Assembly: GCA_000961635.1 (NCBI GenBank)
Contig: LADQ01000241.1
Location: 1-57,916 of the forward strand
DNA: 57,916 bases
Direction of reading: 5' to 3'
Source: Hoeflea sp. BRH_c9
GTDB lineage: Bacteria > Pseudomonadota > Alphaproteobacteria > Rhizobiales > Rhizobiaceae
Positions 10,311 through 56,764 of the stretch are shown piece after piece. The translations under genes and the position numbers were made by a program. The notes beneath the pieces were generated by a model. The model did no database searches and was not told where the DNA came from. It saw only the letters and a list, made by a program, of their open reading frames with translations. Positions within the stretch are counted from its first letter, which is position 1, and every line of letters starts with the position of its first letter.

Positions 10311-10363
10311 AGGGGCATTCCTGATTTTAAGACAAACTCCGGATAATCCGCTTTGGCCCAAGC

Positions 10364-32258: not shown

Positions 32259-32259
32259 G

Positions 32260-33882: not shown

Positions 33883-33911
33883 GTAAAAGCGCCAGTCTTG
33901 GGTTTGGGGGC

Positions 33912-35638: not shown

Positions 35639-35648
35639 CGGATCGCCC

Positions 35649-36764: not shown

Positions 36765-36805
36765 CAAGTGCCCAGTGCAGTGTCATCGAAGGTCTTGAAG
36801 GTCTG

Positions 36806-36842
36806 GATGCGGCTGCGCAATTCTTTACTGCGCAGCCGCATC
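36806..36842 (-). other. Perfect 14-bp hairpin between binding-protein gene and ATPase gene
   Basis: GATGCGGCTGCGCA and its exact complement are separated by 9 bases in the spacer of the second polyamine-type operon. No U run follows on the minus strand, so it is not a classical terminator; it more likely protects the 3' end of the binding-protein message or slows polymerase. The first polyamine-type operon has a hairpin in the same kind of place, after its binding-protein gene. Confidence 0.6.
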
Positions 36843-36873
36843 ATGTCACGAAAGGACAATCGTGGCGCCTGGC

Positions 36874-37950: not shown

Positions 37951-38030
37951 GTCGAACTCCCTTTGAACCCTCTGAATATCAGCGCATTATTGATTATGCC
38001 CCGCGCGGATGACAAGAAGCGTAGTCCCTC

Positions 38031-38057
38031 ATTGGACTGCACCGCATATCCATTATA
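38031..38057 (-). promoter_or_regulatory. Promoter of second polyamine-type operon with a possible MocR site
   Basis: On the minus strand a consensus -10 box TATAAT lies at 38057-38052, about 100 bases before the binding-protein start; the -35 region (near 38075-38080) is poor, as in activator-dependent promoters. Overlapping it is ATTGGAC-N10-ATCCATT (38031-38054), which matches 12 of 14 positions of the perfect inverted repeat upstream of the enolase gene, with identical spacing. Because it covers -10 to the start point, binding would be expected to repress. The -10 box is direct; the MocR link is inferred. Confidence 0.5.
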
Positions 38058-38184
38058 GATATTTTTCCATACCAATTTGTGACATCTCCCCGCATGCGCC
38101 AACCTGCCCCTGAGCGAACTGGGGGTCAAGTCCGGCAGCCGATTGAACGCCAACCGGGCGCAGGATCAGCGCGGAACTCCGCTT

Positions 38185-39657: not shown

Positions 39658-39704
39658 GAAGGATATCCCGCGATAATTTGAAATTGGTCTGGAAGCTTTG
39701 CGAG

Positions 39705-39728
39705 ATTGGACCTTATCGTAAGTCCAAT
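39705..39728. promoter_or_regulatory. Perfect inverted repeat between MocR and enolase genes, likely MocR operator
   Basis: ATTGGAC-N10-GTCCAAT is an exact inverted repeat in the 116-base spacer between the MocR gene and the divergent enolase-superfamily gene. A further half site, ATTGGTC, starts at 39683, exactly 22 bases (two helical turns) upstream of the first. Repeated half sites at such spacing are usual for dimeric MocR regulators. A close relative of the repeat lies in the promoter of the second polyamine-type operon. Confidence 0.55.
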
Positions 39729-39773
39729 CTACCCGCTACGGTTTCCTCAAACACAGGCATGGATTCGCTGATC

Positions 39774-40880
39774 ATGAAAATCGCCCACATCGAAACATTC
39801 ACCAACGAGCATGTCTGCTTCGTCAAGGTCACCACCGATTCAGGAGACATTGGCTGGGGCCAGGTTGCGCCATACTGCGCTGATATCACTGCCCAAATCG
39901 TCCACCGGCAGATCGCCCCCCATGCCCTTGGCCAATCGGCGCTCGACATCGACTTCCTCGTCGATCTGATTCCCGAGAAGGAGCACAAATTCCCCGGCTC
40001 CTACCTCAAGCGCGCCCTTGGCGGGCTCGATACGGCACTTTGGGACCTGCGCGGACGCCTGGAAGGCAAGCCGGTTTGCGAACTGATCGGCGGAACGCCG
40101 GGAACCATCCGCGCCTATGGCTCGTCGATGAAACGCGACATCACACCGAAGGATGAAGCGGCGCGGTTGAGCCGCCTGCGCGACGAATTCGGCTTTGACG
40201 CGTTCAAGTTCCGGATCGGCGCCGAATGCGGCCGCGGCAAGGACGAATGGCCTGGCCGGACCGAGGAAATCGTCCCGACCATGCGCAAGGCGATGGGGGA
40301 CAAGATCGCGCTGCTGGTCGACGCCAATTCCTGCTATGCGCCGCAACAGGCCATCGAGATCGGCAAGCTGCTGATCGACAATGACATCAGCCATTTTGAG
40401 GAGCCCTGCCCTTACTGGGAATATGAGCAAACCAAACAGGTCACCGAGGCGCTATCCATTGATGTCACCGGCGGCGAGCAGGATTGCGAACTGACAAACT
40501 GGCGCTGGATGATCGAAATGAAGGCCGTCGATATCGTCCAGCCCGACATCTGCTATCTCGGCGGATTGACGCGGACATTGCGCGTCGCCGACATGGCGCA
40601 CAAGGCGGGGCTGCCTTGCACGCCCCATTGCGCCAACTGGTCGATGGTGACGCTGTTCACCATGCACCTGCTGCGCGCCATCCCCAACGCCGGAAAATAC
40701 CTCGAATTCTCCATCGAGGGCGAAGATTACTATCCCTGGCAGGACGGGCTTTTCGTTGAATCGCCCTATGCGATTGTCGACGGCAAGGCGACCGTGACCG
40801 ATGCGCCCGGCTGGGGCGTCGACATCAACCCCGCCTGGCTGGAGCGCTCCAAGCATCAGATCAGCAGCGCCTCGTCGTAA
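39774..40880 (+). CDS. Mandelate racemase/muconate lactonizing enzyme family protein (acid-sugar dehydratase-like)
   Basis: 368 residues from [10 protein letters not shown], the usual start of the family; an ATG five codons earlier is possible and neither has a clear ribosome site. Metal ligands of the barrel are visible: Asp in LVDANS near residue 180, Glu in HFEEPCP near residue 207 and Glu in TGGEQDC near residue 231. The His-Asp dyad has Asp in [10 protein letters not shown] near residue 258 and His in CTPHCANWS near residue 284. The second-strand lysine motif reads AFKFRIG (K-x-R instead of K-x-K). This pattern fits acid-sugar dehydratases rather than racemases; the substrate is unknown. 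It is 90 bases before an aldo/keto reductase gene and probably MocR-controlled. Confidence 0.85.
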
Positions 40881-40970
40881 CTGTTCTCTCGCAAGCGCAA
40901 GGTGTTCTGGACTCTTTGGATAATGCGGTGTCGAATGGCGATTCCACGCGTCGACCTTCAGAAAGAGATC

Positions 40971-41963
40971 ATGCAACAGCGTCAATTGGGAAAAGCTGGC
41001 CCGCGCGTTTCGGCCATCGGGCTTGGCTGCTGGAACTTTGCGGGCCCCTACGGACCGACCTCCGAGCAGGAAAGCCATGAAACCCTGGCCGCAGCCCGGG
41101 ATCTCGGCATCGATCTGCTCGACACCGCCAATGTCTATGGCATGGGCGTGTCGGAGACGGTCATCGGAAATTATCTCAGGAAACATCCGGGTCATTTCAG
41201 GATTGCCACGAAAGCCGGCATTCGCGTTGATCGCTCCACCGGTGCCCGGTTCTTCGACAATTCCCCCGATCACCTGAGAAGCGAGCTCGAAGCGTCGCTC
41301 AGCCGTCTCGGCGTTGATCATGTCGATCTGTTCTACATCCACCGGCGCGAGGCGGACCGGCCGATAGAGGAGGTGGTCGACACGCTTGGGCGCTTCAAAC
41401 GGGAAGGCAAGATCGGCGGTTTCGGATTCTCGGAAATTTCGCCGGCGTCGCTGAAAGCAGCGCATGCGGTCGCGCCGGTGGCGGCGGTGCAAAGCGAGTA
41501 TTCCCTTTGGACCCGGCAACCCGATCTGGGACTGGTTCAGGCCTGCAAGGAACTTGGGGTCGCCTTTGTTGCGTTCTGCCCGCTCGGACGCGGCATTTTT
41601 GGCCAACAGGCGCCGGATCCCGCGACATTCGGGGATCAGGACTTCCGCAAGTCAAATCCACGCTTCACTGAGCCCAACCTGTCCCGCAACATTGCCGCCA
41701 TCAGCCCCTTCAAGGATTATGCGCGCGACATCGGCGCCACACCGGTAGCCCTGGCCATTGCCTGGCTTCTGGCTCGCGGCCCGCATGTGATTCCCATTCC
41801 TGGCACGCGCTCGGCCAGTCACCTGACAGACTGCGCAAACGGTGTCTCGCTTAAGCTCACTCCCGCCCATCTCGCCGAGATCGAGCGTATCCTTCCCGCA
41901 GGCTTTGCCCATGGCGGCCGCTATTCCGGCACCCAGGCGATCGGCGTCGAATCCTATTGCTGA
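40971..41963 (+). CDS. Aldo/keto reductase
   Basis: 330 residues starting at MQQRQLGKAGPRVSAIGLG, the usual family start, with AAAGAGA ahead of the ATG. The tetrad residues are visible: Asp and Tyr in LLDTANVYGMG near residue 51, Lys in IATKAGI near residue 83 and His in FYIHRRE near residue 124. The NADPH-binding IPIPGTRSASHL lies near residue 275. It is of the large AKR11/13-like group and is not close to the two FHWW-type reductases elsewhere in the window. It probably acts with the enolase-type enzyme on a sugar-acid or keto intermediate. A GC-rich hairpin follows. Confidence 0.86.
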   Translation: MQQRQLGKAGPRVSAIGLGCWNFAGPYGPTSEQESHETLAAARDLGIDLLDTANVYGMGVSETVIGNYLRKHPGHFRIATKAGIRVDRSTGARFFDNSPDHLRSELEASLSRLGVDHVDLFYIHRREADRPIEEVVDTLGRFKREGKIGGFGFSEISPASLKAAHAVAPVAAVQSEYSLWTRQPDLGLVQACKELGVAFVAFCPLGRGIFGQQAPDPATFGDQDFRKSNPRFTEPNLSRNIAAISPFKDYARDIGATPVALAIAWLLARGPHVIPIPGTRSASHLTDCANGVSLKLTPAHLAEIERILPAGFAHGGRYSGTQAIGVESYC

Positions 41964-42129: not shown

Positions 42130-44343
<2,214 letters not shown>

Positions 44344-44541
44344 TCACATCTGGGTTGATCAGGTTCACTTTCGATGAGCCCGGAAATCTCTGGAAGCTGG
44401 TAGATCTTGTCTCAACAGGCCCGTCTGATTGCATTCCACGCAACGCAAAACCTGGGGCCATGCGCACCAGGGCCATCGAGACAGATAACAGGTGAGTCCT
44501 ATCACCTCCCCCGTTCCTCCCCTTAATGTATAGCAAAATCA

Positions 44542-44571
44542 GATCATTAATTTAAGTTGAATTATATGATC
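44542..44571. promoter_or_regulatory. AT-rich dyad between katG and oxyR, candidate OxyR site
   Basis: In the 259-base spacer an AT-rich block contains GATCAT...ATGATC with an 18-base, partly symmetric AT-rich interior (30 bases in all), 20 bases before the oxyR start. LysR-type regulators bind such interrupted dyads in their divergent promoter, and OxyR protects long sites of about this size. It does not match the enterobacterial OxyR consensus well. The rest of the spacer shows nothing else clear. Confidence 0.4.
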
Positions 44572-44590
44572 ACAGTGATAATTTGAAATT

Positions 44591-45538
44591 ATGAAAAATC
44601 TGAGCCTCAAACAACTGCGCTACTTCGAGGCGCTGGCGCTACACAGCCATTTTGGACGCGCAGCCAATGCCTGTGCGGTATCTCAGCCAGCCCTGTCCGT
44701 GCAGATCAGGGATCTGGAAATCTCGCTCGGCGCCAAGCTCTTTGAAAGAGGCGCGCGTCGGGCCCGGCTCACCAGTTTCGGGGAAGAATTCGCCTTGCGT
44801 GTCCGTTTGATTCTGCGGTCCGTGGATGAGCTGAGCGAATTGGCGCTCGCCTCCCGGGATCGTTTGGTCGGCCGCCTTCGCATCGGCATCATCCCGACGA
44901 TCGCCCCCTATCTGCTCCCCGCCATCATTGGCAACATGACCCGGATGCACGATGGGATCGATCTGCAGATTCGCGAAACGCTGACGCCTCAACTCGTCGA
45001 GGAATTGATCGAGGGACGGCTTGATGCAGCCATCGTGGCGCTGCCGATCTCCGAGCCGTCCCTGACGGAGGTGACATTGTTTGAAGAAAACTTCGTACTG
45101 GTCCGGCCAGACAGGGATGCCGGCAAACCGGTGCCCAACCGCAAGGCCTTGCGTGAAATGAAACTGCTTCTGCTCGAAGAGGGACACTGCTTTCGCAATC
45201 AGGCGCTGTCATTCTGCAACATCGCGTCATCCCGGCCCCGGGAAATCCTCGACGCCAGTTCCCTTGCCACATTGGTCCAGATGGTGGGCGCAGGCATGGG
45301 CGTCACGCTGATCCCGGAAATGGCGATCGCGGTGGAAACCCGCTCGGCGCCGGTTTCCATCGCCCGCTTCAGTGCGCCACAGCCGACGCGGACCATCGGC
45401 ATGATATGGCGCAAGACCAGCCCCTTGTCCAAACAGCTGATCGAAATCTCGGAAATTGTCCGGCAATCCGCAGCCGCTCTGGAGCCATGCGATCAGGCCC
45501 TCGCAGCAACGCCGGACACGCTCGCGCAACAGCCCTGA
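44591..45538 (+). CDS. oxyR: Hydrogen peroxide sensor and LysR-type regulator
   Basis: 315 residues. An N-terminal winged helix (residues 5-64, VSQPALSVQIRDLEISLG) is followed by the LysR effector domain. The redox pair is plain: EEGHCFRNQALSFC places Cys200 and Cys209 nine residues apart, as Cys199 and Cys208 in E. coli OxyR, which form a disulphide on contact with hydrogen peroxide. It is divergent from katG, its usual target; a dyad lies in between. The start is the ATG at which the LysR domain begins. Confidence 0.95.
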   Translation: MKNLSLKQLRYFEALALHSHFGRAANACAVSQPALSVQIRDLEISLGAKLFERGARRARLTSFGEEFALRVRLILRSVDELSELALASRDRLVGRLRIGIIPTIAPYLLPAIIGNMTRMHDGIDLQIRETLTPQLVEELIEGRLDAAIVALPISEPSLTEVTLFEENFVLVRPDRDAGKPVPNRKALREMKLLLLEEGHCFRNQALSFCNIASSRPREILDASSLATLVQMVGAGMGVTLIPEMAIAVETRSAPVSIARFSAPQPTRTIGMIWRKTSPLSKQLIEISEIVRQSAAALEPCDQALAATPDTLAQQP

Positions 45539-45593: not shown

Positions 45594-46640
45594 TTAGAAC
45601 ACCAGCCCATCCATGAGCTTTCTCGCGGTCCGCAGCGTGCCGGCGCCGGTGATCTCGCCATTGCCGTCCTGGCTGATCAGCACCTCGGCGGCGCCGGTTG
45701 GATGCTCGATGGAAAACCGCCCGTCCCTGGGGAGAACAGCCAGGCCATGTGCCGGCGACCCCTCGAGAATGCAGGCGGTGGCAACGCTGACGGCGGCGAA
45801 TACCCCGATCGTGGCATGGCAGCGGTGAGGAATGAAGCTGCGCGTATTGATCGCGCCACCAGCCCGAGCTTTTGAGACCAGGGTCATTTTCGGCACCGAT
45901 TTGTCCTTGACGTCCCCGAGTTTCATCATCGGGCCAGCTTGAAGCCGGATTTTTTCCAGTTGCGCCTTCAAAGACGAATTGGCGTCCAGTTCGTCCCGGC
46001 TTTCATACCCTGTGATGCCAAAATCGGAAGCGCGGACAATGACGCAGGGCATGCCATTGTCGATAAGGGTGCATTCGATGCCGTCAATCGGATCGACAAT
46101 ATTGCCTGTCGGAAGCAGCGCGCCGCACATCGAGCCTGCGATATTCTCAAACATCAATGGCACGGCGGCGTGAGTGCCGGGAACCCCGTCGATCGCCGCA
46201 TCGCCCGCATAAGTTACCTTGCCGTCTGGGGTCGAGATCCGTGCGGTTGCGACCTCCCCGGTGTTGAGCATGTGAATGCGCACCGGCGTGGTTTCCCCTG
46301 AAACGGCAACGAGCCCCCGCTCGATCGCCGCCGGGCCGACGGCTGCAAGGATGTTACCGCACCCTTGCGCGTCCGAGACAAGCGCCTGATCGACAAAGAT
46401 CTGAAGGAACAGATAGTCGACATCGGCATCATCCCGCGTGGAGGGAGACAGGACCGCAACTTTCGAGGTCAGCGGATCGCCGCCGCCAATGCCGTCAATC
46501 TGGCGCGGGTCGGGCGAGCCCATGATCCGCAGCAACAGGGCGTCCCGTTCCACCGTGTTTTCGGGCAGGTCGCGTTTGAGGAAAAACGCACCCTTGGAGG
46601 TGCCGCCGCGCATCCACAGGCATGGAATGCCTTCAGACAT
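45594..46640 (-). CDS. galD: 4-oxalomesaconate tautomerase (PrpF/GalD family)
   Basis: 348 residues, of the PrpF isomerase fold. [11 protein letters not shown] near residue 10 and [15 protein letters not shown] near residue 48 are family signatures; a catalytic cysteine is expected in DAQGCGN near residue 92. GalD-type members convert keto-form 4-oxalomesaconate to the enol form in gallate degradation (LigU does the equivalent step in the protocatechuate 4,5-route). The gene starts 8 bases inside the preceding aldolase gene, and it is last in an operon with a hydratase, a dioxygenase and the aldolase, which fits exactly this step. Aconitate-type isomerase activity is the alternative. Confidence 0.87.
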
Positions 46641-47304
46641 ATTTCAGGCCCTTTTCGGCCAGCCGGGGCCGCATGTCGTAAATGTCCAGACCCAGTTCGC
46701 CCGCGGCAAGCCTCACACGTTTGGCTTCCTCGGCATCCAGCCGTTTCTGGGTCGCCGCCATGACGGTCTCAGCGGATGCACGGGGCACAACACAGACGCC
46801 GTCATCGTCGGCGATGACGATGTCGCCTGGATTGACCAATGCGCCGGCGCAAACCACCGGCACATTGACGCTGCCGAGCGTTTCCTTGACCGTGCCTTGC
46901 GCCGATACAGCGCTCGACCACACCCCAAACCGCATCCTGCGAAGATCGCGAGTGTCGCGCACGCCGGCATCGATCACCAGCGCCCTGCAGCCGCGCGCCA
47001 TGGCCGAGGTCGCAAGCAGGTCGCCGAAATAGCCCATGTCGCAGGGCGCCGTCGGCGCCAGAACCATGATGTCGCCCTCCCGCAATTGTTCGATCGCCAC
47101 ATGGATCATCCAGTTGTCGCCGGGCGCTGCGGAAATGGTCACGGCGGAGCCGGCGATCGCGAAATCCTGCTGGATCGGCCGCATAATTGCCTTCATCAAT
47201 CCGGTCCGGCCCTGGGCCTCATGCACGGTGGCGACACCTGCTTCGCCCAACCGCTTGATGATCTCCGCGTCAGCGCGCTCGATATGCTGTTTGACGACCG
47301 CCAT
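46633..47304 (-). CDS. galC: 4-carboxy-4-hydroxy-2-oxoadipate aldolase (RraA-like, GalC/LigK family)
   Basis: 223 residues of the RraA-like fold. The divalent-metal and substrate motif [11 protein letters not shown] is near residue 91, with the catalytic Arg116 and Asp117 in [10 protein letters not shown], the pair that distinguishes the aldolases from RraA proper. GalC/LigK/HMG aldolase cleaves 4-carboxy-4-hydroxy-2-oxoadipate to pyruvate and oxaloacetate and can decarboxylate oxaloacetate. It lies one base after the dioxygenase gene and overlaps the tautomerase gene by 8 bases. This is the last step of the route in this operon. Confidence 0.89.
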
Positions 47305-47305
47305 C

Positions 47306-48268
47306 TCAGTGATCCTTGTCCACCGGCGGGGTGCCGTGGGTGTGGAAACTCTCGATCGTCTTGAGACCCCAGGCCTGGCCCTTCTTGCGGTCGGCCTCGG
47401 TCCAGACCACCGGCTCCCAGTCCGGTTGCAGCATCAGCCTTGCGCCGGAATTGGCCAGTTCGACGCGGTTGCCCGCCGGTTCCCAGACATAGAGAAAGAA
47501 CGTGCCCTGAATGGCATGCTTGTGCGGTCCGGTTTCAATGTGAACGCCGTTCTCGAGGAAAATGTCGGCGGCACGCAGAATGTCTTCGCGAGTATCTGTC
47601 GCATAGGTGACATGGTGCAGACGGCCATCGCCGCCGCCATGCTCTTCGGTGCATGCCAGATCATAGGTCTTGTTGTTGATCGTGAACCAGCAACCGCCCA
47701 GGCGGCCATTGTCGAGCTGGATGATTTCGGTGACGCGCGAACCGAGACATGTCTCCATGAAGGCGCGGAACTCGCTCACATCGGTCGCCAGCAGGTTCAG
47801 GTGATCGATGCGGCGCGGACAGGCGCCGGTGGCGTGAAAGCGGCTGGACATGTTCTTGAGCGCGGGCTTGTGCGCCGCGTCGGGCTGATACTTGACCGTG
47901 TCCCAGTAGATCTCGAAGACATGGCCGAACGGATCCTCGAACCGGTAGGCGCGACCATGGCCGAGATCGCCTTCCACCCAGCCCAGGCTGGTGAAGCGGC
48001 TTGCCTCGATTGCGGCCACGCGCCGTTCCAGCGCCTCCGGCGAAGAGGCGCGATAGGCAATGTGACCCACACCAGTGGTGTGGTGCCGGGTCAGCTTCAG
48101 GCTGTGGAACTCATAGTCATCCCAGGCGCGCAGATAGGCCGAATTTTCATCCTGCCCCGACACCGTCAGACCGTAGACCCGGGTGAAAAAGTCGAGACTC
48201 TCCTCGAACTTGTCGGTGTACATCTCGACATGGGCCAGATGTGCGAGATCAAAACAGGGTTCAGTCAT
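47306..48268 (-). CDS. Extradiol ring-cleavage dioxygenase, XylE-like (VOC superfamily)
   Basis: 320 residues with two VOC modules (about 8-125 and 150-280), the type I catechol 2,3-dioxygenase layout. Iron ligands are visible in the C-terminal module: His156 in RRIDHLNLL, His219 in RLHHVTY and Glu270 in GNRVELAN. These match His153, His214 and Glu265 of XylE in order and spacing, and His251 and Tyr260 correspond to its second-sphere acid-base residues. All enzymes around it belong to the gallate/protocatechuate meta-route, whose known dioxygenases (GalA, LigAB) are of the unrelated type II fold and are not seen here. This enzyme may therefore cleave gallate or a similar acid; the substrate is inferred. 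Confidence 0.88.
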
Positions 48269-48310
48269 GGTTTGCTCCAGTCATTTCAGGTCCGCAGGCA
48301 AACAGGGCCT

Positions 48311-49045
48311 TCACAGCTCATCCACCGTGCGCGGGAAGATCGATTCAAATCCTTCGGCATATCTGCAGTCGCGACCTCCGGACTGACCGCCCGAATTGCG
48401 CTTGAAATGATTGGCGCGCTGTTGCGCCACCCTGGTGTAGTACTCCCACAGATGCTCTTGCCCCTGCATGCATTCGATCGCCGCGCGTTTCTTGTCCCAT
48501 ACCGGCGTAATGTCGAGGAATGTATCAGGCTTCCATCCCATCTGTTCGGTCTGATGCGGCTCGAACAGATAGAGCTGGGGCGCGCCAAGCACCTTTTCAC
48601 CCGGATTATGCCCCCAGGCCTGCGCGATCATCCGGCACTCAAGCGCCACTTGCGTCGCATACATGTGGTCGGTGTTGTAGGGATCATATTTCGAGTGCGA
48701 CAGCATGAAGGCCGGCTGCACCTTGCGGATGACTTCGACAACCCGGTTCTTGTCTTCCCGGACGAGCTCCAGCGGATAGTCGCCGAGATCAAGGCAGACC
48801 AGATCATGCACCCCGAGCGCCCTGGCCGCCTCTTCGGCTTCCTTGCGGCGGGCATCCTTGACCTTCTGCAGCGTCATGCCCTCCTGCTTCCAAAGCTTGG
48901 CGCTCTCGCCGCGCTCGCCAAATGAGAGACACAGCACAGTCACTTCATATCCAAGCTCGGCATGGGCGGCGATGGCGCCACCGCAGCGCCAGACGAAATC
49001 AGCGGCATGGGCGCTGATGACGAGCGCCGTTTTCTTCACAGGCAT
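48311..49045 (-). CDS. galB: 4-oxalomesaconate hydratase (PIG-L fold, GalB family)
   Basis: 244 residues, the length of Pseudomonas GalB. The PIG-L zinc motif is present in the GalB variant form SAHAADFVWRCGG (residues 11-23; His13 and Asp16), and the third ligand is in NTDHMYAT (His127). In true PIG-L deacetylases the motif is AHPDDE, so the change favours hydratase over deacetylase. GalB adds water to 4-oxalomesaconate to give 4-carboxy-4-hydroxy-2-oxoadipate, the substrate of the aldolase two genes on. It is the first gene of the operon. A LysR-controlled spacer divides it from the divergent dehydrogenase gene. Confidence 0.85.
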   Translation of the reverse strand: MPVKKTALVISAHAADFVWRCGGAIAAHAELGYEVTVLCLSFGERGESAKLWKQEGMTLQKVKDARRKEAEEAARALGVHDLVCLDLGDYPLELVREDKNRVVEVIRKVQPAFMLSHSKYDPYNTDHMYATQVALECRMIAQAWGHNPGEKVLGAPQLYLFEPHQTEQMGWKPDTFLDITPVWDKKRAAIECMQGQEHLWEYYTRVAQQRANHFKRNSGGQSGGRDCRYAEGFESIFPRTVDEL

Positions 49046-49121
49046 AAATCTCTCTCCAATTCGATGGATGATTTTTGCCCCTTCGCATCGACATGAGCAA
49101 TTTCAATGCCGCGCGCATGGC

Positions 49122-49136
49122 ATAAGAATTTGCTAT
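49122..49136. promoter_or_regulatory. LysR-type T-N11-A box between galB and the divergent dehydrogenase gene
   Basis: ATAAGAATTTGCTAT fits ATA-N9-TAT, the T-N11-A form of LysR-family sites, in the 156-base spacer between the two divergent units, one of which encodes a LysR regulator. Such short boxes arise by chance in AT-rich spacers, so the call is weak. Confidence 0.35.
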
Positions 49137-49201
49137 AGTGTGTGGATCGAGCGTTCCATTTCTGCCAGACTTGGCACACGGAAACGCGGGAGACCCAAGC
49201 C

Positions 49202-50101
49202 ATGAAACACCTGCCGGAAAGACTGGCCACCATTGGATTTGGCGAGGCGGCGGAAGCCTTTTCATCGGGATGGCGCGAGACCTATCATGGCGGAATCGCC
49301 TGTTTCGATGTGAAGGTCAGCCAACCCGAAGGACGGGCCGGGCTCGAAGCACGCGCGAGCGGGTCAGGCGTGACAACTGCCGAAACCGCCGCCGAAGCGG
49401 TGGCCGGCGCGCCGGTCATCTTCAGCCTGGTCACCGCCGATCAGGCGCTGATCGCCGCGCAGGAGTGCGCGCCGTATCTGGGTTCCGGAGTCCTTTGGTT
49501 CGACTGCAATTCCTGCTCGCCGGGAACGAAACGCCAGGCCGCCCAGACGATCGAAGCCGCCGGAGGCGTCTATGTCGATGTCGCGGTGATGGCGCCGGTT
49601 CATCCAAAACGGCACCAGACGCCGCTGCTGGTCTCCGGCCCTCAGACCGGCGCCGCGGTCGATGTGCTTGAGGCGCTCGGCATGAAACCGGTTCTGGCAG
49701 GCGACACGGTCGGACAGGCGTCATCCATCAAGATGTTCCGCTCGGTGATGATCAAGGGGCTGGAAGCGCTGACCGGTGAATGCCTGCTGGCGGCGCGGCG
49801 CGCCGGCGTCGAGCGCGATGTCCTGGCCTCGCTTCAGGCGTCCGATCCGGGATTTGACTGGACGGCCAGGTGCGCCTACAGCCTTGAGCGGATGATGATT
49901 CACGGCGAACGGCGGGCGGCGGAAATGCGGGAAGTCTCCAGGACCATTGCCGAACTGGAATTGCCGTCGCGCATGTCGGACGCCATCACCGAATGGCAGG
50001 CGCAGATCGCAGAACTGCAGCTTGACGGCGGCACGGCGGATCTCGGCGACCGGGCAGACAGGATTCTCAACGCCCTGTCCGCGGACACGGCCATGCCATG
50101 A
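49202..50101 (+). CDS. NAD(P)-dependent dehydrogenase of the 6PGDH/3-hydroxyisobutyrate type (DUF1932 C-terminus)
   Basis: 299 residues from the ATG with GGGAG ahead. The N-terminal Rossmann part has the motif TIGFGEAAEAF near residue 10, a modified GxGxxG, followed by segments FSLVTADQALIAA and CNSCSPGTKRQA usual for beta-hydroxyacid dehydrogenases. The helical C-terminal half (from about 170) has SSIKMFRSVMIKGLEAL with the catalytic Lys, and resembles DUF1932. It is divergent from the galB operon and overlaps the regulator gene by 4 bases. It may reduce or oxidise an intermediate or entry compound; it is not LigC, which belongs to another family, so its step is open. Confidence 0.8.
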   Translation: MKHLPERLATIGFGEAAEAFSSGWRETYHGGIACFDVKVSQPEGRAGLEARASGSGVTTAETAAEAVAGAPVIFSLVTADQALIAAQECAPYLGSGVLWFDCNSCSPGTKRQAAQTIEAAGGVYVDVAVMAPVHPKRHQTPLLVSGPQTGAAVDVLEALGMKPVLAGDTVGQASSIKMFRSVMIKGLEALTGECLLAARRAGVERDVLASLQASDPGFDWTARCAYSLERMMIHGERRAAEMREVSRTIAELELPSRMSDAITEWQAQIAELQLDGGTADLGDRADRILNALSADTAMP

Positions 50102-51264
50102 ACCATAATATTCGCCATCTGCGGATTTTTCTCGCGGTCGCAAAGCTGGCTTCGATCAGCAAGGCCGCGCGGGAATGCGGGTTGTCGCAGCCGGCCGTGA
50201 CCCAGGCGATCAACAAGATGGAAGCGGAGTTCGATGCCGCCCTGTTCGACCGGACGCCGCAGGGGGTGTTCGCCACCCGGCTCGGCGCCCTTCATGCCGG
50301 GCGCATCGGGCGGGCGATGTCGATCATCGACGCGGCGTTCCTGTCGGTGGCGCCCCGCTTGCGGCTGACAGCGACGGCGTCTCAGCTTGAAGCCCTGATC
50401 GCGGTTCGCGAAACCGGCAATTTCACCCTGGCGGCGAGGCGGATCGGCATCGCGCAGCCGACCGTTCACCGCGCCGTCAGCCAATTGGAGAAGGAAGCGC
50501 TACGGCCGCTGTTTGAGCGCACTTCGGCGGGGATTGTCGCGACTCGCGGCGGGCAAATGCTCGCCAGCGCCGCGCGTCTGATGGAAGCGGAACTGGTTCA
50601 GGCGGACATGGAAATCGCGGAAGCGTTGGGCCGCGAAACCGGGCGTATCGTGGTGGGCGCGATGCCCTTGTCGCGCGCCTATCTCATGCCGAAGGTGATC
50701 GCGCAATTCAGGCGGGACTGGTCGCGGCTGCCGCTCCGCGTTCTTGACGGGCCGTATGACGAAATGATTTCGGGCCTGAGAAACGGAGAAATCGATTTTC
50801 TCATCGGCGCCTTGCGAAACCCCGCCCCGATCGGCGACATCGAACAGACGCCCTTGTTCGATGACACACTGGCGATCGTCGCAGGGCCTGACCATCCGCT
50901 GGCCGGCAAATCCGGACTCGGGGTCGAGGACCTCATCAATTATCCCTGGGCGGTGGCTGCCGCGGGAACGCCCACCCGCGACCATTTCGAGCGGATGTTT
51001 TCAAGCGCCGGGCTGAAGACGCCTGAAAGCATTGTCGAAACGGCGTCGCTCATCCTCATTCGCGAATTGCTGGCCAGCAGCGATCATTTGGGCTGCGTTT
51101 CAGCCCTGCAGGCCGAGGCGGAGATCAAGGCGGGACGAATCGCGCGTATCAATTTTGAATTGTCCGACACCGCGCGACCGATTGGGATCACCACCCGTCG
51201 CGGCTGGAAACCTACGCCCTCGCAGGCAAAACTTATCGAGCTGGTGAGCAATTACCAAGGCTGA
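50098..51264 (+). CDS. LysR-type regulator with two DNA-binding domains
   Basis: 388 residues; typical LysR proteins have 290-320. Residues 5-64 form a first winged helix (AARECGLSQPAVTQAINKME) and residues 93-152 a second (AARRIGIAQPTVHRAVSQLE), each followed by the usual FERT/FDRT strand and wing. The effector domain follows from about residue 175. The duplication is in frame, with no sign of frameshift or recent direct repeat. The gene overlaps the dehydrogenase gene (ATGA) and precedes the TRAP genes. It probably controls the divergent ring-cleavage operon and the importer. Extra specificity or looping may come from the second domain. Confidence 0.85.
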   Translation: MNHNIRHLRIFLAVAKLASISKAARECGLSQPAVTQAINKMEAEFDAALFDRTPQGVFATRLGALHAGRIGRAMSIIDAAFLSVAPRLRLTATASQLEALIAVRETGNFTLAARRIGIAQPTVHRAVSQLEKEALRPLFERTSAGIVATRGGQMLASAARLMEAELVQADMEIAEALGRETGRIVVGAMPLSRAYLMPKVIAQFRRDWSRLPLRVLDGPYDEMISGLRNGEIDFLIGALRNPAPIGDIEQTPLFDDTLAIVAGPDHPLAGKSGLGVEDLINYPWAVAAAGTPTRDHFERMFSSAGLKTPESIVETASLILIRELLASSDHLGCVSALQAEAEIKAGRIARINFELSDTARPIGITTRRGWKPTPSQAKLIELVSNYQG

Positions 51265-51390
51265 CTATAGCCTTAGATTATATGCTCCGCATGTCTTTGG
51301 AATGGTCTCAAAGGCCTTGGACTTGTAGGAATGACTGACATTCCGAAGCCGCGATGGTTTCGGCTGGACGATTCACTAGGGAGGATGACC

Positions 51391-52380
51391 ATGATTATTT
51401 CCAAAGCCATCACCGGCGCCGTCGCTGCGCTGGGACTTATGACCGGAGCCGTTTCAGCGGCTGATTTGAAGCTCGCTGATTTTCAGCCGCCGAGCCACTT
51501 CGTCGTCGACGCCGCCTACACGCCATTTGCCGAGAAGGTCGCGGCAGAGACCAATGGCGAAGTCACCGTCAGCGTTTTCATGGGCGGTGAACTCGGACCG
51601 GGTCCGAGGGAACAGTACAATCGCGCCGTGGACGGCGTGACCGACATCGCCTTCGGCCTGCCCGGCTACACGGCATCGAACTTTCCCCAGACGCTGCTGA
51701 CCGAGCTTCCAGGCGTCATTTCCGCCGAGACCGGTACCGCGCGCATCCTCGCCAACATCGACATGCTGTCGGACGAATACAAGCGCGTCGTGCTCCTGGG
51801 GCTTTGGAACAATGCGCCGAACGTGATTTTCACGGCGACAAAGCCGATCCGCGCAATGGAAGACCTCAAGGGTCTCAAGATCCGGGTCCCCTCGCGCAAT
51901 GCCGGCTTGGTCGTGGAAGCATGGGGCGCCTCCCCCGTGTCGATGCCCGCGCCTGAAATCTACAACGCCATGCAGACCGGCGTGATCGACGGCGCCATGA
52001 CCGACGCCACCACGCTCGGCGCGTTCAAGCTCGCCGAAGTGACCAACTACATCACTGTCGGCATGGAAACGACAATCTCCAGCTTCTTCCTGATCATGAA
52101 CCGCGACAGCTTCAACGATCTGAGCGAAGACCATCAGAAAATCGTCCTGGAAGCCGGCCGCGAAGCGGCCGTCAACGGCAACACGGCCTGGCTCGGGATC
52201 GCCGACAAGGCGTTGTCCGGTTTTGCCGCGACCGAAGGCAAGGAAGTGATCACGCTTTCGAGCGATGAAGCAGCAAAATTCAATGCTGCATCGGCGCCGG
52301 TCGTTGAAACTGTGATCGCCGAAGCCGAGGCTGAAGGGATTGCGGCGCAAGCCTTCGTCGACGCCCTGAAGAGCAAGTGA
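51391..52380 (+). CDS. TRAP importer substrate-binding protein (DctP family)
   Basis: 329 residues. The ATG was chosen because AGGGAGG lies 6 bases ahead; an ATG two codons up is too close to that site. The signal peptide ends near VSA (residue 23). The mature chain is DctP/TAXI-class: the ligand Arg lies in LKGLKIRVPSRNAG, and AVDGVTDIAFGLPGYT near residue 68 is characteristic. TRAP importers take up organic acids driven by a sodium gradient. Placed after the aromatic ring-cleavage regulator, it probably brings in an aromatic or dicarboxylic acid. It is 126 bases after the LysR gene. Confidence 0.9.
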   Translation: MIISKAITGAVAALGLMTGAVSAADLKLADFQPPSHFVVDAAYTPFAEKVAAETNGEVTVSVFMGGELGPGPREQYNRAVDGVTDIAFGLPGYTASNFPQTLLTELPGVISAETGTARILANIDMLSDEYKRVVLLGLWNNAPNVIFTATKPIRAMEDLKGLKIRVPSRNAGLVVEAWGASPVSMPAPEIYNAMQTGVIDGAMTDATTLGAFKLAEVTNYITVGMETTISSFFLIMNRDSFNDLSEDHQKIVLEAGREAAVNGNTAWLGIADKALSGFAATEGKEVITLSSDEAAKFNAASAPVVETVIAEAEAEGIAAQAFVDALKSK

Positions 52381-52387
52381 GACAGCC

Positions 52388-52900
52388 TTGAGCAATTCGC
52401 GACATGATCTGGTCCATTCGACATCCGTCGAATGGACCGTCCGCATGCTGACCCTTGCGTCGTCCCTGGCACTCGGCGTGCTGCTGGTGGTGACCTTCGC
52501 AGGGGTCGTCATGCGCTATTTTTTCAACGCGCCGATCCTTGGCAACAACGAGATCATCGAACTGGCTTCAGTCGTCGTGGTGATGCTCGCCATGCCGGGC
52601 GCCGCGCAAAACAACATGCATATCCGGGTCGATGTGTTCGACGGGCCGATTGGCGCGTTCGGCCGGTTTGCCGGCGACATTCTGACGCGCGGACTTTCGA
52701 TCTATCTGCTGACGCTTCTGGGCTGGCGCGCATGGGGCAAGCTTGCCGACGCCGCTGAATATGGCGACGCCACCAATATGCTCAGCATCCCGCTTTGGCC
52801 GTTCTACGGGCTTCTCGTTCTGGGCGCGGCGCTCTACGCCATCGTGCTGGCCATCCAGCTCGTCGACATCCTCCGCTCGGGAGTGGCCAGCAGTGAGTGA
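52388..52900 (+). CDS. TRAP importer small membrane subunit (DctQ family)
   Basis: 170 residues with four hydrophobic helices (about 20-42, 52-68, 92-112, 135-158). The TTG start lies 7 bases after the DctP stop with AGTGAGA nearby; the next in-frame ATG, 19 codons on, would cut the first membrane helix's lead-in, so TTG is preferred. GVVMRYFFNAPILGNNEIIE near residue 38 is the family motif. It overlaps the large subunit gene by 8 bases. Confidence 0.85.
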   Translation: MSNSRHDLVHSTSVEWTVRMLTLASSLALGVLLVVTFAGVVMRYFFNAPILGNNEIIELASVVVVMLAMPGAAQNNMHIRVDVFDGPIGAFGRFAGDILTRGLSIYLLTLLGWRAWGKLADAAEYGDATNMLSIPLWPFYGLLVLGAALYAIVLAIQLVDILRSGVASSE

Positions 52901-54197
52901 TTTCATGATCGGGGTCAGTGGCCTTCTGGCCATGTTCGGCCTCATGGTGTTCCGCATGCCCGTGGGCATGGCGATGCTGGCCGCGGGCTATTTCGGAACA
53001 GTGATGATCAGTGGCGGCCGTTCCGCCAACGCGATGCTTGTCACGGAAGCTTTTTCGGCAACGTCGAACTACAATCTGACGGTGATCCCGCTGTTCATCC
53101 TGATGGGCAACATCGCGTCCGTCGCGGGATTCAGCAGCCGTCTGTACGAAGCAGCTTTCGCCTGGGTCGGCTGGCTGCGCGGCGGGCTTGCTTCCGCCTC
53201 CATCATCGGCTGCGCCGCCTTTGCCGCCGTCAGCGGCTCTTCGGTCGCCACCGCGGTGACCATCGGCAAGGTGGCGCTGCCTGAAATGAAGCGCTTCGGC
53301 TATTCCGACGCATTGGCAACGGGCGCCATTGCCGCGGGCGGTACGCTCGGCTTTCTCATTCCGCCATCCACCGGCTTCGTGCTTTATGCGATCCTGACCG
53401 AGGAAAGCATCGGCCAGCTTTTCATGGCGGGCATTCTGCCCGGCCTGCTGCTGACGCTTTTGTTCATGGCGGCCGTGGCGGTGATGACCTTTGTCGACCC
53501 CAAGGCCGGTCCACGCGGTGAATGGGTGTCGATGTCGAAGCGCATGATGGCGCTGTTGCGCGCGTTTCCACTGCTGATCGTGATTGTCGTCTCCATCGGC
53601 GGCATCTATCTCGGCGTCTTCACGCCGGTCGAGGCCGCCGGTGTCGGCGCCGGGCTGGTCATCCTTTTGGCTCTCGCCATGCGCAAGCTCGAATGGCACG
53701 CGTTTAAGCAGGCTGTCACCGCAACCGTCGGCACCACGGCGATGCTCTATCTCATCATCATTGGCGCGAGCGTGCTCAATCCGTTCCTTGCGCTCACCCA
53801 TGTGCCGGCAACGTTGGGCGAGGCGATGACATCGGCGGGTCTCGGCCCCTACGGCGTTCTCATGTTGATCATCCTCGCCTATCTGCTGCTCGGCATGTTC
53901 ATGGACGGGCTTGCGATGCTGGTGGTGACAACCCCGATCTTCTTTCCGATCATCACCGGTCTGGGGTTCGATCCGATCTGGTTCGGCGTGATCGCGGTCA
54001 TCGTCATCGAGATGGGGATGATCACCCCGCCCGTCGGCCTGAATGTATTCGTCGTCAAGAGCGTTGCCCAGGATGTGCCAATGGCCACGATCTTCCGCGG
54101 CGTCATACCGTTCTGGATCGCTATGGCGGTGTGCCTGCTGGCCATCATCGTCTTCCCGCAGATCGCGCTGACGATTCCCCAGGCGATGTTCCAGTAG
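52893..54197 (+). CDS. TRAP importer large membrane subunit (DctM family)
   Basis: 434 residues with about 12 hydrophobic helices. The GTG start with GGGAG ahead gives the usual N-terminus (SDFMIGVSGLLAMFG); an ATG four codons on is an alternative. A longer frame upstream is only overlap with the DctQ gene. Family motifs: ASIIGCAAFAAVSGSSVATA near residue 108 and FLIPPSTGFVLYAI near residue 155 are sodium- and substrate-site loops, and the C-terminal half repeats the pattern (EMGMITPPVGLNVFVVK). It transports the ligand delivered by the DctP-type protein. Confidence 0.92.
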   Translation: MSDFMIGVSGLLAMFGLMVFRMPVGMAMLAAGYFGTVMISGGRSANAMLVTEAFSATSNYNLTVIPLFILMGNIASVAGFSSRLYEAAFAWVGWLRGGLASASIIGCAAFAAVSGSSVATAVTIGKVALPEMKRFGYSDALATGAIAAGGTLGFLIPPSTGFVLYAILTEESIGQLFMAGILPGLLLTLLFMAAVAVMTFVDPKAGPRGEWVSMSKRMMALLRAFPLLIVIVVSIGGIYLGVFTPVEAAGVGAGLVILLALAMRKLEWHAFKQAVTATVGTTAMLYLIIIGASVLNPFLALTHVPATLGEAMTSAGLGPYGVLMLIILAYLLLGMFMDGLAMLVVTTPIFFPIITGLGFDPIWFGVIAVIVIEMGMITPPVGLNVFVVKSVAQDVPMATIFRGVIPFWIAMAVCLLAIIVFPQIALTIPQAMFQ

Positions 54198-54242: not shown

Positions 54243-54686
54243 TCAATCCTTGGCGACGGACCCGGCCGCCCTCGCCGCCTTGGCGGCCAGTTCGACGAAC
54301 ATCCGGTACTCGGCCTCGTCAAGACCGGACAGGATTTCTTTCTGAAGTTCTTCGACGATCGGCGACAGCGAGGCGACCAAGGCCTCCCCCTCCTCCGTCA
54401 GCGCCAGTTTCCGCGCCCGTTTGTCCATTGCATTGATCTTCCGGCTGACCAGCCCCTTGTGTTCGAGACGATCGGCAACGGCGCCGATGGTTGCCCGGTC
54501 CTTGGCGACCGCATCGGCAAGTCCGGCCTGATCAATCCCCGGGCTTTGACGGATCGCATCAAGGGCTGCAAATTGCACCGGCGTCAGGTCGAAGCCTGCT
54601 TCCCTCGTGCGCGTCATGAAGACATGGGTCGAGATCTGGTGCAGCCGCCGGATGAGATGTCCGGGCATCTTCGAAACATGTGTCAT
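54243..54686 (-). CDS. mobR: MarR family regulator, MobR-like
   Basis: 147 residues from the ATG with GAGAGA ahead; a longer frame runs into the operator region. The winged helix spans about residues 35-105 (GLADAVAKDRATIGAVADRLEHK), between two dimerisation helices, as in MarR. The gene is divergent from a MobA-like hydroxylase gene across 155 bases. In Comamonas testosteroni the MarR-type protein MobR represses mobA and is released by 3-hydroxybenzoate; the same pairing makes this name likely. Two matching operator-like repeats lie in the spacer. Confidence 0.82.
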   Translation of the reverse strand: MTHVSKMPGHLIRRLHQISTHVFMTRTREAGFDLTPVQFAALDAIRQSPGIDQAGLADAVAKDRATIGAVADRLEHKGLVSRKINAMDKRARKLALTEEGEALVASLSPIVEELQKEILSGLDEAEYRMFVELAAKAARAAGSVAKD

Positions 54687-54756
54687 CGTGTCTCTCGCTG
54701 TTGCGCCAACCGTCGCGGCAACGCCACGGGACGGCGATGCCTCAAGCCAGTCTACC

Positions 54757-54831
54757 CCAAAATAATATCTGTACATATCATTTGATTTATCGACGTTTCC
54801 GCGCTATTAATAAGTACACATATTATTTTGG
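54757..54831. promoter_or_regulatory. mobR-mobA intergenic region: paired operators flanking the mobA promoter
   Basis: Two related 26-base sites (54757-54782 and 54806-54831) face each other as an inverted repeat: the outer CCAAAATAATAT is exact on both sides and the inner parts agree at most places (TGTAC followed by a TAT/TTA block). Between and within them a good promoter can be read toward mobA: -35 TTGATT at 54782-54787, a 17-base spacer and -10 TATTAA at 54805-54810. One site touches the -35 box and the other covers the start point, so a bound MobR-like protein would shut the promoter. The repeats are seen; the repressor is inferred. Confidence 0.68.
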
Positions 54832-54841
54832 GAGAGTGGCA

Positions 54842-56764
54842 ATGCAATATCACCAAAACGGCTTCCGTCCCGGCGACCCACACATCTGTGATGCAGCGCC
54901 AGGCAGGCCATTGTCTGACCCGGATTTTTCCGAACCGGTGGATGTGCTGATCGTCGGCACCGGCCCGGCCGGGCTGACACTCGCAGCCCAGCTTGCCGCT
55001 TTCCCCGACATCAGGACGCGAATTGTCGAGCGCAGATCGGGAGCCCTGGACAAGGGCCAGGCCGACGGCATTTCCTGCCGCTCGATGGAGATGTTCAACG
55101 CGTTCGATTTCGCGGAAAAAATCCTCAAGCAGGGCTATTGGGTCAACGAGACGACCTTCTGGAAGCCGGATCCGAAAGCCCCGGAACACATTGTCCGCAA
55201 CGGCCGCATCCAGGATGTCGAGGACGGGCTCTCGGAAATGCCGCACATGATCCTCAACCAGGCCCGCGTGCACGACATGTATCTCGAAATCATGCGCAAT
55301 TCCCCATCGCGGCTGGAGCCGGACTATTCCGTGCAACTGGCGGGCCTCACAATCGATCCGGCCGGTGGCGACTATCCGGTGACCGCCACGCTCGAAAACG
55401 CGGAGCCCGGCCGCGAAGGCGAGACGTTTACGCTCAAGGCGCGTTATGTGGTTGGATGCGACGGCGCGCGCAGCGCGGTGCGCAAGGCCATCGGGCGCGA
55501 ACTCGTCGGCGATTCCGCCAATCAGGCCTGGGGTGTCATGGATGTTCTGGCTGTCACCAGTTTTCCCGACATCCGTTGCAAGACCCTGATCCAGTCGGCC
55601 GGCGAAGGCAATATCATCATCATTCCGCGCGAGGGCGGATATCTGACCCGGCTCTACATCGAGCTCGACAAACTGAAATCCGGCGAGCGGGTCGCAAACC
55701 GCAACATCACCATCGACCACCTGATCGCGGCGGCCCAGCGCATCTTCCGGCCCTATTCGCTCGACGTCAGGGATGTCGCCTGGTGGTCGGTCTACGAGAT
55801 CGGCCAGCGGCTGACCGACAAGTTCGACGACGTTCCCGCCAGCGGGGTCGCATCCCGCCTGCCGCATGTCTTCATCTGCGGCGATGCCTGCCACACCCAC
55901 AGCCCCAAGGCCGGCCAGGGCATGAACGTGTCGATGGGCGATGCGTTCAATCTCGGCTGGAAACTGGTCAGCGTGCTGCAGGGCCGCTGCCCGCCGGAAA
56001 TTCTGCACAGCTACTCCGCCGAGCGCCAGGCCGTCGCCAAGGACCTGATAGACTTTGACCGCGCATGGTCACGCATCATGAGTGAACGGCCCGAAACCGG
56101 CGACGGCGAGAACGGCGAGGCGCCGAAATTCCAGCTCTATTTCATCCAGCATGGCCGCTACACGGCCGGCATGTCGGTCAAATACGAGGCGTCGGACTTG
56201 ACAGGTGGGGACACCTGGCAATCGCTCGCCTCGGGTTTCGAAATCGGCACGCGGTTCCACTCGGCCCCGGTGGTCCGCCTTGCCGACGCCAAGCCGGTGC
56301 ATCTCGGTCATGTCGTGAAGGCGGACACGCGCTGGCGGTTCTTCGCCTTCTGCCCGGACCAGGATCCATCGGCACCGAATTCAGCAATTGCCAGGCTCTG
56401 CCGTTTCCTCGCCGAAGATCCCGCATCCCCTGTCCGACGCTACACCCCGCCGGACCAGGACATCGATGCCATCCTTGATGTTCGCGCGATCTTCCAGCAG
56501 GGCACGCGTGACCTCGCGCTTGAAACCCTGCCCACATTTCTCAAGCCGCAAAAGGGCAGGCTTGGCCTTGTCGATTATGAGAAGATGTTCTGCCCCGATC
56601 TGAAGACCGGGCCGGATATATTCGATATGCGCGGGATAGACAGGAAAAATGGGTGTCTGGTGATCGTGCGTCCGGACCAATATGTCGCCCATGTCCTTCC
56701 GATCGAGGCCCATGACGAACTGGCGGCTTTCTTCAGCGGCATCATGCTGGAACAAACGCCCTGA
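54842..56764 (+). CDS. mobA: 3-hydroxybenzoate 4-monooxygenase-like FAD hydroxylase (MobA family)
   Basis: 640 residues, almost exactly the length of Comamonas MobA (639). The ATG follows GGGAGAG by 5 bases. Single-component flavin hydroxylase layout: FAD motif VGTGPAGLTLAAQL near residue 38, the DG motif VVGCDGARSAVRKA near residue 204, and the GD motif FICGDACHTHSPKAG near residue 343; a thioredoxin-like C-terminal domain fills about 450-640, as in phenol hydroxylase and MobA. The reaction would be 3-hydroxybenzoate plus NADPH and oxygen to protocatechuate. Divergent mobR-like gene and flanking operators support the name; other hydroxyaromatics such as phenols are the alternative. Confidence 0.83.
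   Translation: MQYHQNGFRPGDPHICDAAPGRPLSDPDFSEPVDVLIVGTGPAGLTLAAQLAAFPDIRTRIVERRSGALDKGQADGISCRSMEMFNAFDFAEKILKQGYWVNETTFWKPDPKAPEHIVRNGRIQDVEDGLSEMPHMILNQARVHDMYLEIMRNSPSRLEPDYSVQLAGLTIDPAGGDYPVTATLENAEPGREGETFTLKARYVVGCDGARSAVRKAIGRELVGDSANQAWGVMDVLAVTSFPDIRCKTLIQSAGEGNIIIIPREGGYLTRLYIELDKLKSGERVANRNITIDHLIAAAQRIFRPYSLDVRDVAWWSVYEIGQRLTDKFDDVPASGVASRLPHVFICGDACHTHSPKAGQGMNVSMGDAFNLGWKLVSVLQGRCPPEILHSYSAERQAVAKDLIDFDRAWSRIMSERPETGDGENGEAPKFQLYFIQHGRYTAGMSVKYEASDLTGGDTWQSLASGFEIGTRFHSAPVVRLADAKPVHLGHVVKADTRWRFFAFCPDQDPSAPNSAIARLCRFLAEDPASPVRRYTPPDQDIDAILDVRAIFQQGTRDLALETLPTFLKPQKGRLGLVDYEKMFCPDLKTGPDIFDMRGIDRKNGCLVIVRPDQYVAHVLPIEAHDELAAFFSGIMLEQTP

Follow-up and report, generated by a model that had tools for sequence, protein, structure and literature searches.

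We analyzed a 57,916-nucleotide stretch of DNA (the window), which is one contig of the draft genome of Hoeflea sp. BRH_c9 (77% complete, 279 contigs), and describe here a gene cluster for the breakdown of aromatic acids built around a ring-cleaving dioxygenase of the VOC family. Four genes, galB, the VOC gene, galC, and galD, form one tight operon on the minus strand. Divergent from them on the plus strand lie genes for a DUF1932 dehydrogenase, a LysR-type regulator, and an importer of the tripartite ATP-independent periplasmic (TRAP) type.

The three Gal enzymes belong to the lower gallate route. GalD (45594–46640), the 4-oxalomesaconate tautomerase with a PrpF fold, scores 518.9 bits against NF033377 (cut-off 440), and GalC/LigK (46633–47304), the 4-carboxy-4-hydroxy-2-oxoadipate aldolase, scores 365.0 bits against TIGR02798 (cut-off 304.5). 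GalB (48311–49045), the 4-oxalomesaconate hydratase with a PIG-L fold, matches PF02585. No GalB model was found among its NCBIfam matches, and its best PDB match is a 4-oxalomesaconate hydratase (5cgz) at 319.5 bits, with the next match at 55.8 bits. On the plus strand, the NAD(P)-dependent dehydrogenase (49202–50101) has PF03446 and DUF1932 (PF09130) domains and is a candidate stand-in for LigC. It is followed by the LysR-type regulator (50098–51264), which contains two HTH_1 stretches (PF00126 twice) and PF03466. The importer consists of the solute-binding protein DctP (51331–52380; PF03480), the small permease DctQ (52388–52900; PF04290), and the large permease DctM (52893–54197; PF06808, with TIGR00786 over its cut-off). 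An earlier note, made from the letters of the window without database searches, had described an operon for GalB-, GalC-, and GalD-type enzymes together with a VOC dioxygenase, and each of these parts was recovered at or close to its given coordinates. Two genes come in addition: one for the DUF1932 dehydrogenase, which belongs to the cluster, and one just outside it (54842–56764) for a monooxygenase of the 3-hydroxybenzoate hydroxylase type.

The VOC dioxygenase and residue 202

The VOC gene (47306–48268, minus strand) encodes a type I extradiol dioxygenase of 320 residues, a proposed gallate dioxygenase. Two modules match PF00903, and PDB alignments span residues 6–317. It is the only ring-cleavage enzyme of the operon, and its family is PF00903, not that of the LigB fold (PF02900). 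Homoprotocatechuate 2,3-dioxygenase (PDB 1f1x and 1q0c) is of the same family and shares the iron-site residues, at about 131 bits only. We mapped its iron-binding residues by alignment. This places the iron site of the window protein at His156, His219, and Glu270, so the earlier description of an intact His-His-Glu site holds. His248 and Tyr257 of the homoprotocatechuate enzyme align with His251 and Tyr260 of the window protein. All five residues are kept in each of 117 distinct sequences of the clade to which the window protein belongs, and in each of 13 more distant homologs.

Residue 202 separates these two groups. It is Tyr in 117 of 117 clade sequences and His in 13 of 13 more distant homologs, and it aligns with His200, the catalytic second-sphere residue of homoprotocatechuate 2,3-dioxygenase. 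An excerpt from PMC10760822 describes His200 as a second-sphere proton carrier from catechol to dioxygen, with a vanishingly small rate in its absence. His249 and six further positions likewise distinguish the Tyr clade from the His-type homologs. A tree of 126 rows, built by a quick method without four remote members and PDB 9wgj and having long outgroup branches, grouped all 113 Tyr rows together behind a single branch with an SH-aLRT (approximate likelihood ratio test) value of 99, giving one Tyr/His change. The Tyr/His split coincides with an identity gap (at least 56% versus below 50%) and therefore marks one clade rather than repeated evolution. Around seven His-type homologs with 18–19 kb of context, galB, galC, and galD were not found. 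Because homoprotocatechuate dioxygenase cuts the 2,3 bond and the lower route of this cluster depends on cleavage at the 4,5 bond, Tyr202 may be part of a change in both substrate and cleavage site.

Linkage to the gal genes

The VOC gene has 582 confirmed relatives, and we surveyed the loci of the best 80, whose products are 80–95% identical to that of the window. Counts of gal genes refer to the flanking DNA covered at each locus, some flanks ending at contig ends. All three of galB, galC, and galD lie near the VOC gene in 66 of the 80 loci, at least one gal gene does in 72, and in 54 the VOC gene is on the same strand as a gal gene and no more than 250 bp from it. Many loci have the layout galB-VOC-galC-galD. 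In Pantoea, DUF1932-galD-galC-galB is followed by the LysR gene, an aromatic-acid transporter of the major facilitator superfamily, and the VOC gene; a small cluster in Erwinia S63 shows galD-galC-galB, LysR, transporter, and VOC, without DUF1932. Within the Rhizobium leguminosarum group, loci L017 and L021 have no good galB at the VOC locus, and Rhizobium johnstonii 3841 (L013) keeps galB there.

The link is also kept by remote members that are 56–62% identical to the window protein. In Nonomuraea (Actinomycetota) the VOC gene is found with GalB, GalC, and GalD; in Thermus oshimai (Deinococcota) with GalB, GalC, and DUF1932; and in Methylobacterium and Roseomonas with DUF1932 and GalC. The T. 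oshimai cluster is on a plasmid (L167), where a DUF6282 protein, a candidate pyrone hydrolase, is encoded at 9588–10508 between the VOC gene and those for GalB and GalC. We also drew 387 genomes from the class as a whole, counting VOC at 60% identity or more and GalD by the NF033377 cut-off. Six carry the VOC gene, and five of these six have GalD over cut-off, versus 48 of 387 overall; with the window's own genome left out, the figure is four of five (P = 0.0009). VOC and GalD genes lie within about 3 kb of each other in four of the five genomes and on different contigs in the fifth (G210). Closer to the window, four genomes of the same genus have VOC proteins with 93–96% identity to its own, and the Hoeflea alexandrii protein has 94%.

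Several observations count against a gallate dioxygenase. No gal gene was seen in 8 of the 80 loci, five of which have full 10-kb flanks on both sides and three of which are cut by contig ends. Of the eight plasmid records opened, six have gal genes and two (L107 and L108) have a VOC gene without them. Locus L125, from the same order, lacks a gal gene within about 9 kb of its VOC gene, and within the genus of the window the gene is patchy (5 of 18 genomes at E ≤ 1e-100, window included). As to the surroundings of these genes, the solitary VOC gene of L108 (the Pantoea sp. At-9b plasmid) has oligopeptide-type ABC transporter genes as neighbors, and no gal gene occurs within 12 kb of it. The L125 protein belongs to the Tyr clade at 63% identity, and its gene adjoins long genes that we take to be molybdenum-hydroxylase-like. 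In the same family as L125, loci L154 and L155 have a LigI-like gene, GalB, GalC, and VOC in a row.

The loci without gal genes would suit an ordinary catechol 2,3-dioxygenase that stands in the gal operon by accident, and so would the score of the window protein against the catechol 2,3-dioxygenase equivalog TIGR03211 (297.4 bits). That score is under the cut-off of 320.2, however, and Tyr202 replaces the catalytic second-sphere His. Gal genes accompany the VOC gene in nine-tenths of the loci surveyed, the link is kept in three phyla, and no hydrolase or aldehyde dehydrogenase of the catechol meta-route was found among the cluster proteins scanned. We consider this explanation very unlikely and reject it on the cut-off and the conserved linkage. 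The term "XylE-like" in the earlier note understates how far the enzyme departs from that type, and we do not keep it as a functional label. Chance neighborhood is ruled out by the co-occurrence of all three gal genes at most loci and by the link across phyla. Judged from this conserved context, ring opening in the GalB/GalC/GalD route is very probably the task of the VOC enzyme.

Type II enzymes and the likely substrate

Gallate reaches 4-oxalomesaconate by one ring-opening step; for protocatechuate, two further enzymes are required on the way, a dehydrogenase and a pyrone hydrolase. We searched 50 of the 80 genomes with profiles for the LigB family (PF02900) and the LigA domain (PF07746) at E ≤ 0.001. 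PF02900 had no match in 16 of the 50 genomes, and PF07746 had none in 43. The window's own genome also gave no PF02900 match, an absence limited by its 77% completeness; the earlier note likewise saw no type II gene. The 16 LigB-free genomes include those of R. johnstonii 3841 (L013), Neorhizobium sp. SOG26 (L008), and L021. At the VOC locus, galC and galD are present in every one of the 16 and galB in 14, the others being L059, with a LigJ-like gene instead of galB, and L021, without a good galB. A close relative of L013 and L021, L017, has two LigB-family matches and no LigA domain.

Next, we searched 47 genomes for a LigI-like protein, keeping matches at E ≤ 1e-30 and grading them at 45% identity or more. 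"LigI-like" and "LigJ-like" are labels that we presume to fit these PF04909 proteins; the LigI-like query matches PF04909, and its sole NCBIfam match, to a different hydrolase, is below cut-off. In 8 of the 16 LigB-free genomes, no LigI-like protein reached 45% (five without a match at E ≤ 1e-30, three at 33–37%). With neither a LigB-family match nor a LigI-like protein at that level, these eight genomes have no evident route from protocatechuate or 3-O-methylgallate to 4-oxalomesaconate. The clearest case is Thetidibacter halocola (L019), in which genes for a LigM-like protein, VOC, GalB, GalC, and GalD stand together; the locus showed no DUF1932, and searches of the genome gave neither a LigB-family gene nor a LigI-like match. 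The window's own genome gave no LigI-like match at E ≤ 1e-30, again limited by its completeness. A LigC-type dehydrogenase was absent from the ten cluster and neighbor proteins scanned, no genome-wide LigC search having been made.

Taken together, the family, iron site, linkage, and LigB-free genomes suggest that the VOC enzyme is probably a gallate dioxygenase of type I, dependent on Fe(II), which replaces GalA and DesB without being homologous to them. The earlier proposal that it takes the place of GalA/LigAB fits the many genomes without a LigA domain and the 16 without any LigB-family match, but the replacement is not universal: the LigA domain occurs in 7 of 50 genomes, and LigAB lies within the VOC locus itself in L005 and L020. 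Where the two coexist, they could divide the substrates, protocatechuate going to LigAB and gallate to the VOC enzyme. Of the 48 GalD genomes in the class draw, 30 have the LigA domain, and among the other 18, only 3 have the VOC gene, leaving 15 with neither. The draw does not show VOC to be the filler of most LigA-less GalD genomes.

The choice of gallate as substrate is less certain than the ring-opening role, and several findings speak for another acid. The DUF1932 dehydrogenase has no task in the known gallate route, yet it occurs in 50 of the 80 loci and in remote clusters. It would have one if the VOC enzyme were a protocatechuate 4,5-dioxygenase, alone or with gallate as a further substrate. 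The DUF1932 protein would then replace LigC and oxidize the semialdehyde, LigI or an unrelated hydrolase would open the pyrone, GalD, GalB, and GalC would finish the route, and the neighboring hydroxylase would make protocatechuate from 3-hydroxybenzoate. DUF1932 adjoins the VOC gene in Methylobacterium and a LigI-like gene in Roseomonas, with LigAB near by, and in Agrobacterium rosae it adjoins LigI-like and LigJ-like genes. LigI-like genes are present in 7 of the 80 loci, among them L003 and L004, which rank in the closest three, and LigI-like proteins at 45% or more in 14 of the 47 genomes searched (one, G081, with an internal stop). The Thermus cluster, with DUF6282, GalB, GalC, and DUF1932, is near a 4-hydroxybenzoate 3-monooxygenase, whose product is again protocatechuate. 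R. johnstonii 3841, LigB-free as it is, has a second cluster (L171) with LigJ-like and LigI-like genes. R. leguminosarum has also been the source of a purified homodimeric protocatechuate 4,5-dioxygenase, according to a passage of PMC8431788. On the other side, no DUF1932 is found in the covered DNA of 21 of the 66 loci with all three gal genes, and 33 of the 47 genomes lack a LigI-like protein at 45% or more, including four of the five searched genomes of hydroxylase-bearing relatives. Where LigAB is already in the same locus, as in L005, L020, and Roseomonas, a second protocatechuate dioxygenase would be redundant. We regard the protocatechuate explanation as the main rival, possible but with the odds clearly against it. 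The LysR protein of the second R. johnstonii cluster is 40% identical to that of the window.

LigM-like genes, in 10 of the 80 loci, and the LigI-like genes could also point to a VOC enzyme that cleaves 3-O-methylgallate to a pyrone, gallate being handled otherwise. This is highly improbable. The two kinds of gene occur together in none of the 80 loci, most genomes lack the LigI-like protein as above, LigM itself uses up 3-O-methylgallate, and no demethylase gene is present in the walnut Agrobacterium plasmid locus or the small Erwinia cluster. A "MetF-like" label for a gene in 5 of the 80 loci was not relied on, as its scores of 23–31 bits fall far below the cut-off of about 294, and a Pfam scan of one copy gave no match.

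Returning to gallate, we asked which neighbors might supply it. In Neorhizobium, LigM is over cut-off (NF047885, 697.4 bits, cut-off 580); the enzyme converts 3-O-methylgallate to gallate, and the model also covers conversion of vanillate to protocatechuate, which suits the protocatechuate explanation equally. In the walnut Agrobacterium plasmid locus, the gene directly after galD encodes a PF07519 protein (437.9 bits) that carries the annotation "tannase/feruloyl esterase". PF07519 also covers feruloyl esterases, and a tannase-family protein is found in none of the 80 loci, so that it concerns one plasmid lineage only. The flavin-dependent monooxygenase of the window (54842–56764, plus strand) matches 3-hydroxybenzoate hydroxylase (PDB 2dkh) over its whole length at 901.9 bits, and its type is found in 7 of the 80 loci. 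It could make gallate from 3,5-dihydroxybenzoate or protocatechuate from 3-hydroxybenzoate; 2dkh, its closest match, makes protocatechuate. Evidence among the neighbors for a supply of gallate is thin.

The earlier note had the VOC enzyme cleaving gallate or a related trihydroxy acid directly to 4-oxalomesaconate. The linkage and the LigB-free genomes bear out its ring-opening part, and DUF1932, the LigI-like proteins, and the hydroxylase type leave the substrate part less secure. It is quite possible that one enzyme accepts both gallate and protocatechuate.

Regulation, proposed route, and known systems

An operator-like pattern, ATAGC-N6-TTAT, occurs twice in the window, where 0.04 occurrences are expected: in the spacer between galB and the DUF1932 gene (49122–49136, minus strand) and before dctP (51267–51281, plus strand). 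It is present in all 37 galB-DUF1932 spacers compared, window included, a count that is no independent test since the pattern was chosen after inspecting spacers; the copy before dctP played no part in that choice. Over the 80 loci there are 76 occurrences, of which 68 lie no more than 450 bp ahead of a cluster gene's start, with a background mean of 3.6 in five single-base shuffles. The site stands before a cluster gene in 46 loci, is lacking there in 34, and precedes dctP in 7 relatives' loci. As the operon and the importer carry the same site, they are probably one regulon. This agrees with the earlier idea of a pathway fed by the TRAP importer and run by the LysR regulator, of which the binding of LysR to these sites is a prediction.

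Other genes near the cluster appear to stand apart from it. A MarR regulator (54243–54776, minus strand; PF01047) is divergent from the hydroxylase gene, and this pair (54243–56764) has no ATAGC-N6-TTAT site and is possibly a small regulon of its own. The two divergent genes directly downstream of galD (42130–45538), for a catalase-peroxidase (TIGR00198 over cut-off) and an OxyR-like LysR regulator, are likely an unrelated stress pair. Further on, genes for an ABC importer, a GMC oxidoreductase, an FAD-dependent oxidoreductase, a MocR-type regulator, a sugar-acid-dehydratase-like enolase, and an aldo/keto reductase (30954–41963) probably form an unrelated catabolic island.

In the route that we propose, the TRAP importer would bring in gallate or a precursor. 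The VOC enzyme would bind the C3,C4-diol of gallate and cleave the C4–C5 bond, giving 4-oxalomesaconate directly. GalD would tautomerize this compound, GalB would hydrate it, and GalC would split the product into pyruvate and oxaloacetate. The LysR protein, with its two helix-turn-helix stretches, would control both operon and importer through the ATAGC-N6-TTAT sites. A bolder, composite proposal is that extradiol 4,5-cleavage of gallate and protocatechuate was invented independently in the Tyr202 clade, a class of dioxygenase spread over Pseudomonadota, Actinomycetota, and Deinococcota, with Tyr rather than His doing second-sphere chemistry and directing C4–C5 cleavage. DUF1932 would be an unrelated stand-in for LigC, so that the entire upper meta-cleavage route would exist in a second version, and the VOC gene would be the missing gene of the homodimeric R. 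leguminosarum enzyme. We hold it doubtful that all of these parts are true at once.

Gallate is a plant tannin acid. If the VOC enzyme does open its ring, gallate opening evolved on two unrelated folds, and the Tyr-for-His change would be a natural test of proton handling and bond choice in type I enzymes. The enzyme would also offer a non-LigB option for lignin and tannin valorization. Annotated records name these genes "VOC family protein" or "catechol 2,3-dioxygenase", so that in rhizobia, agrobacteria, marine alphaproteobacteria, and Pantoea the catabolism of gallate or protocatechuate may escape notice.

Among the matches listed from openly licensed papers there was no type I gallate dioxygenase; subscription journals, or the work behind PDB 9wgj, may hold one. 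The closest solved chain to the window protein is 9wgj itself, named "Catechol 1,2-dioxygenase" (348 bits, about half identical). It alone has Tyr at the equivalent of position 202 among the matches listed (five aligned chains), and no plasmid record had a relative of it at 60% identity or more. The homodimeric protocatechuate 4,5-dioxygenase is that of R. leguminosarum USDA 2370 (printed 23780), from Chen and Lovell 1994 as cited in a passage of PMC8431788. It is a single-subunit type of 4,5-dioxygenase, and L013 and L021 of the same species group have the VOC gene and no LigB-family gene, the purified enzyme coming from another strain. Being LigB-free, these two could not make a homodimeric enzyme from LigAB, yet the related L017 has its two LigB-family genes. 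The VOC gene may encode an enzyme of this kind.

DesB, LigAB, and DesZ of Sphingobium SYK-6 are type II enzymes that cleave gallate, protocatechuate, and 3-O-methylgallate, according to part of PMC3962378, and an excerpt of PMC4250580 has AromaDeg placing gallate dioxygenases in the LigB superfamily. The substrates proposed for the window VOC enzyme are in the same group of acids, and the folds are unrelated, type II versus VOC. The nearest pathway as a whole is the gal pathway of Pseudomonas putida KT2440 (GalA, GalB, GalC, GalD, GalT, and GalR), which has the lower enzymes GalB, GalC, and GalD in common with the window and, like it, a LysR regulator. Unlike KT2440, the window opens the ring by the VOC enzyme rather than by GalA with its LigB fold, and it has a TRAP importer and DUF1932. 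In KT2440, galA goes with the transporter gene galT, as described in a portion of PMC9649394, much as the VOC gene of Pantoea follows an aromatic-acid transporter.

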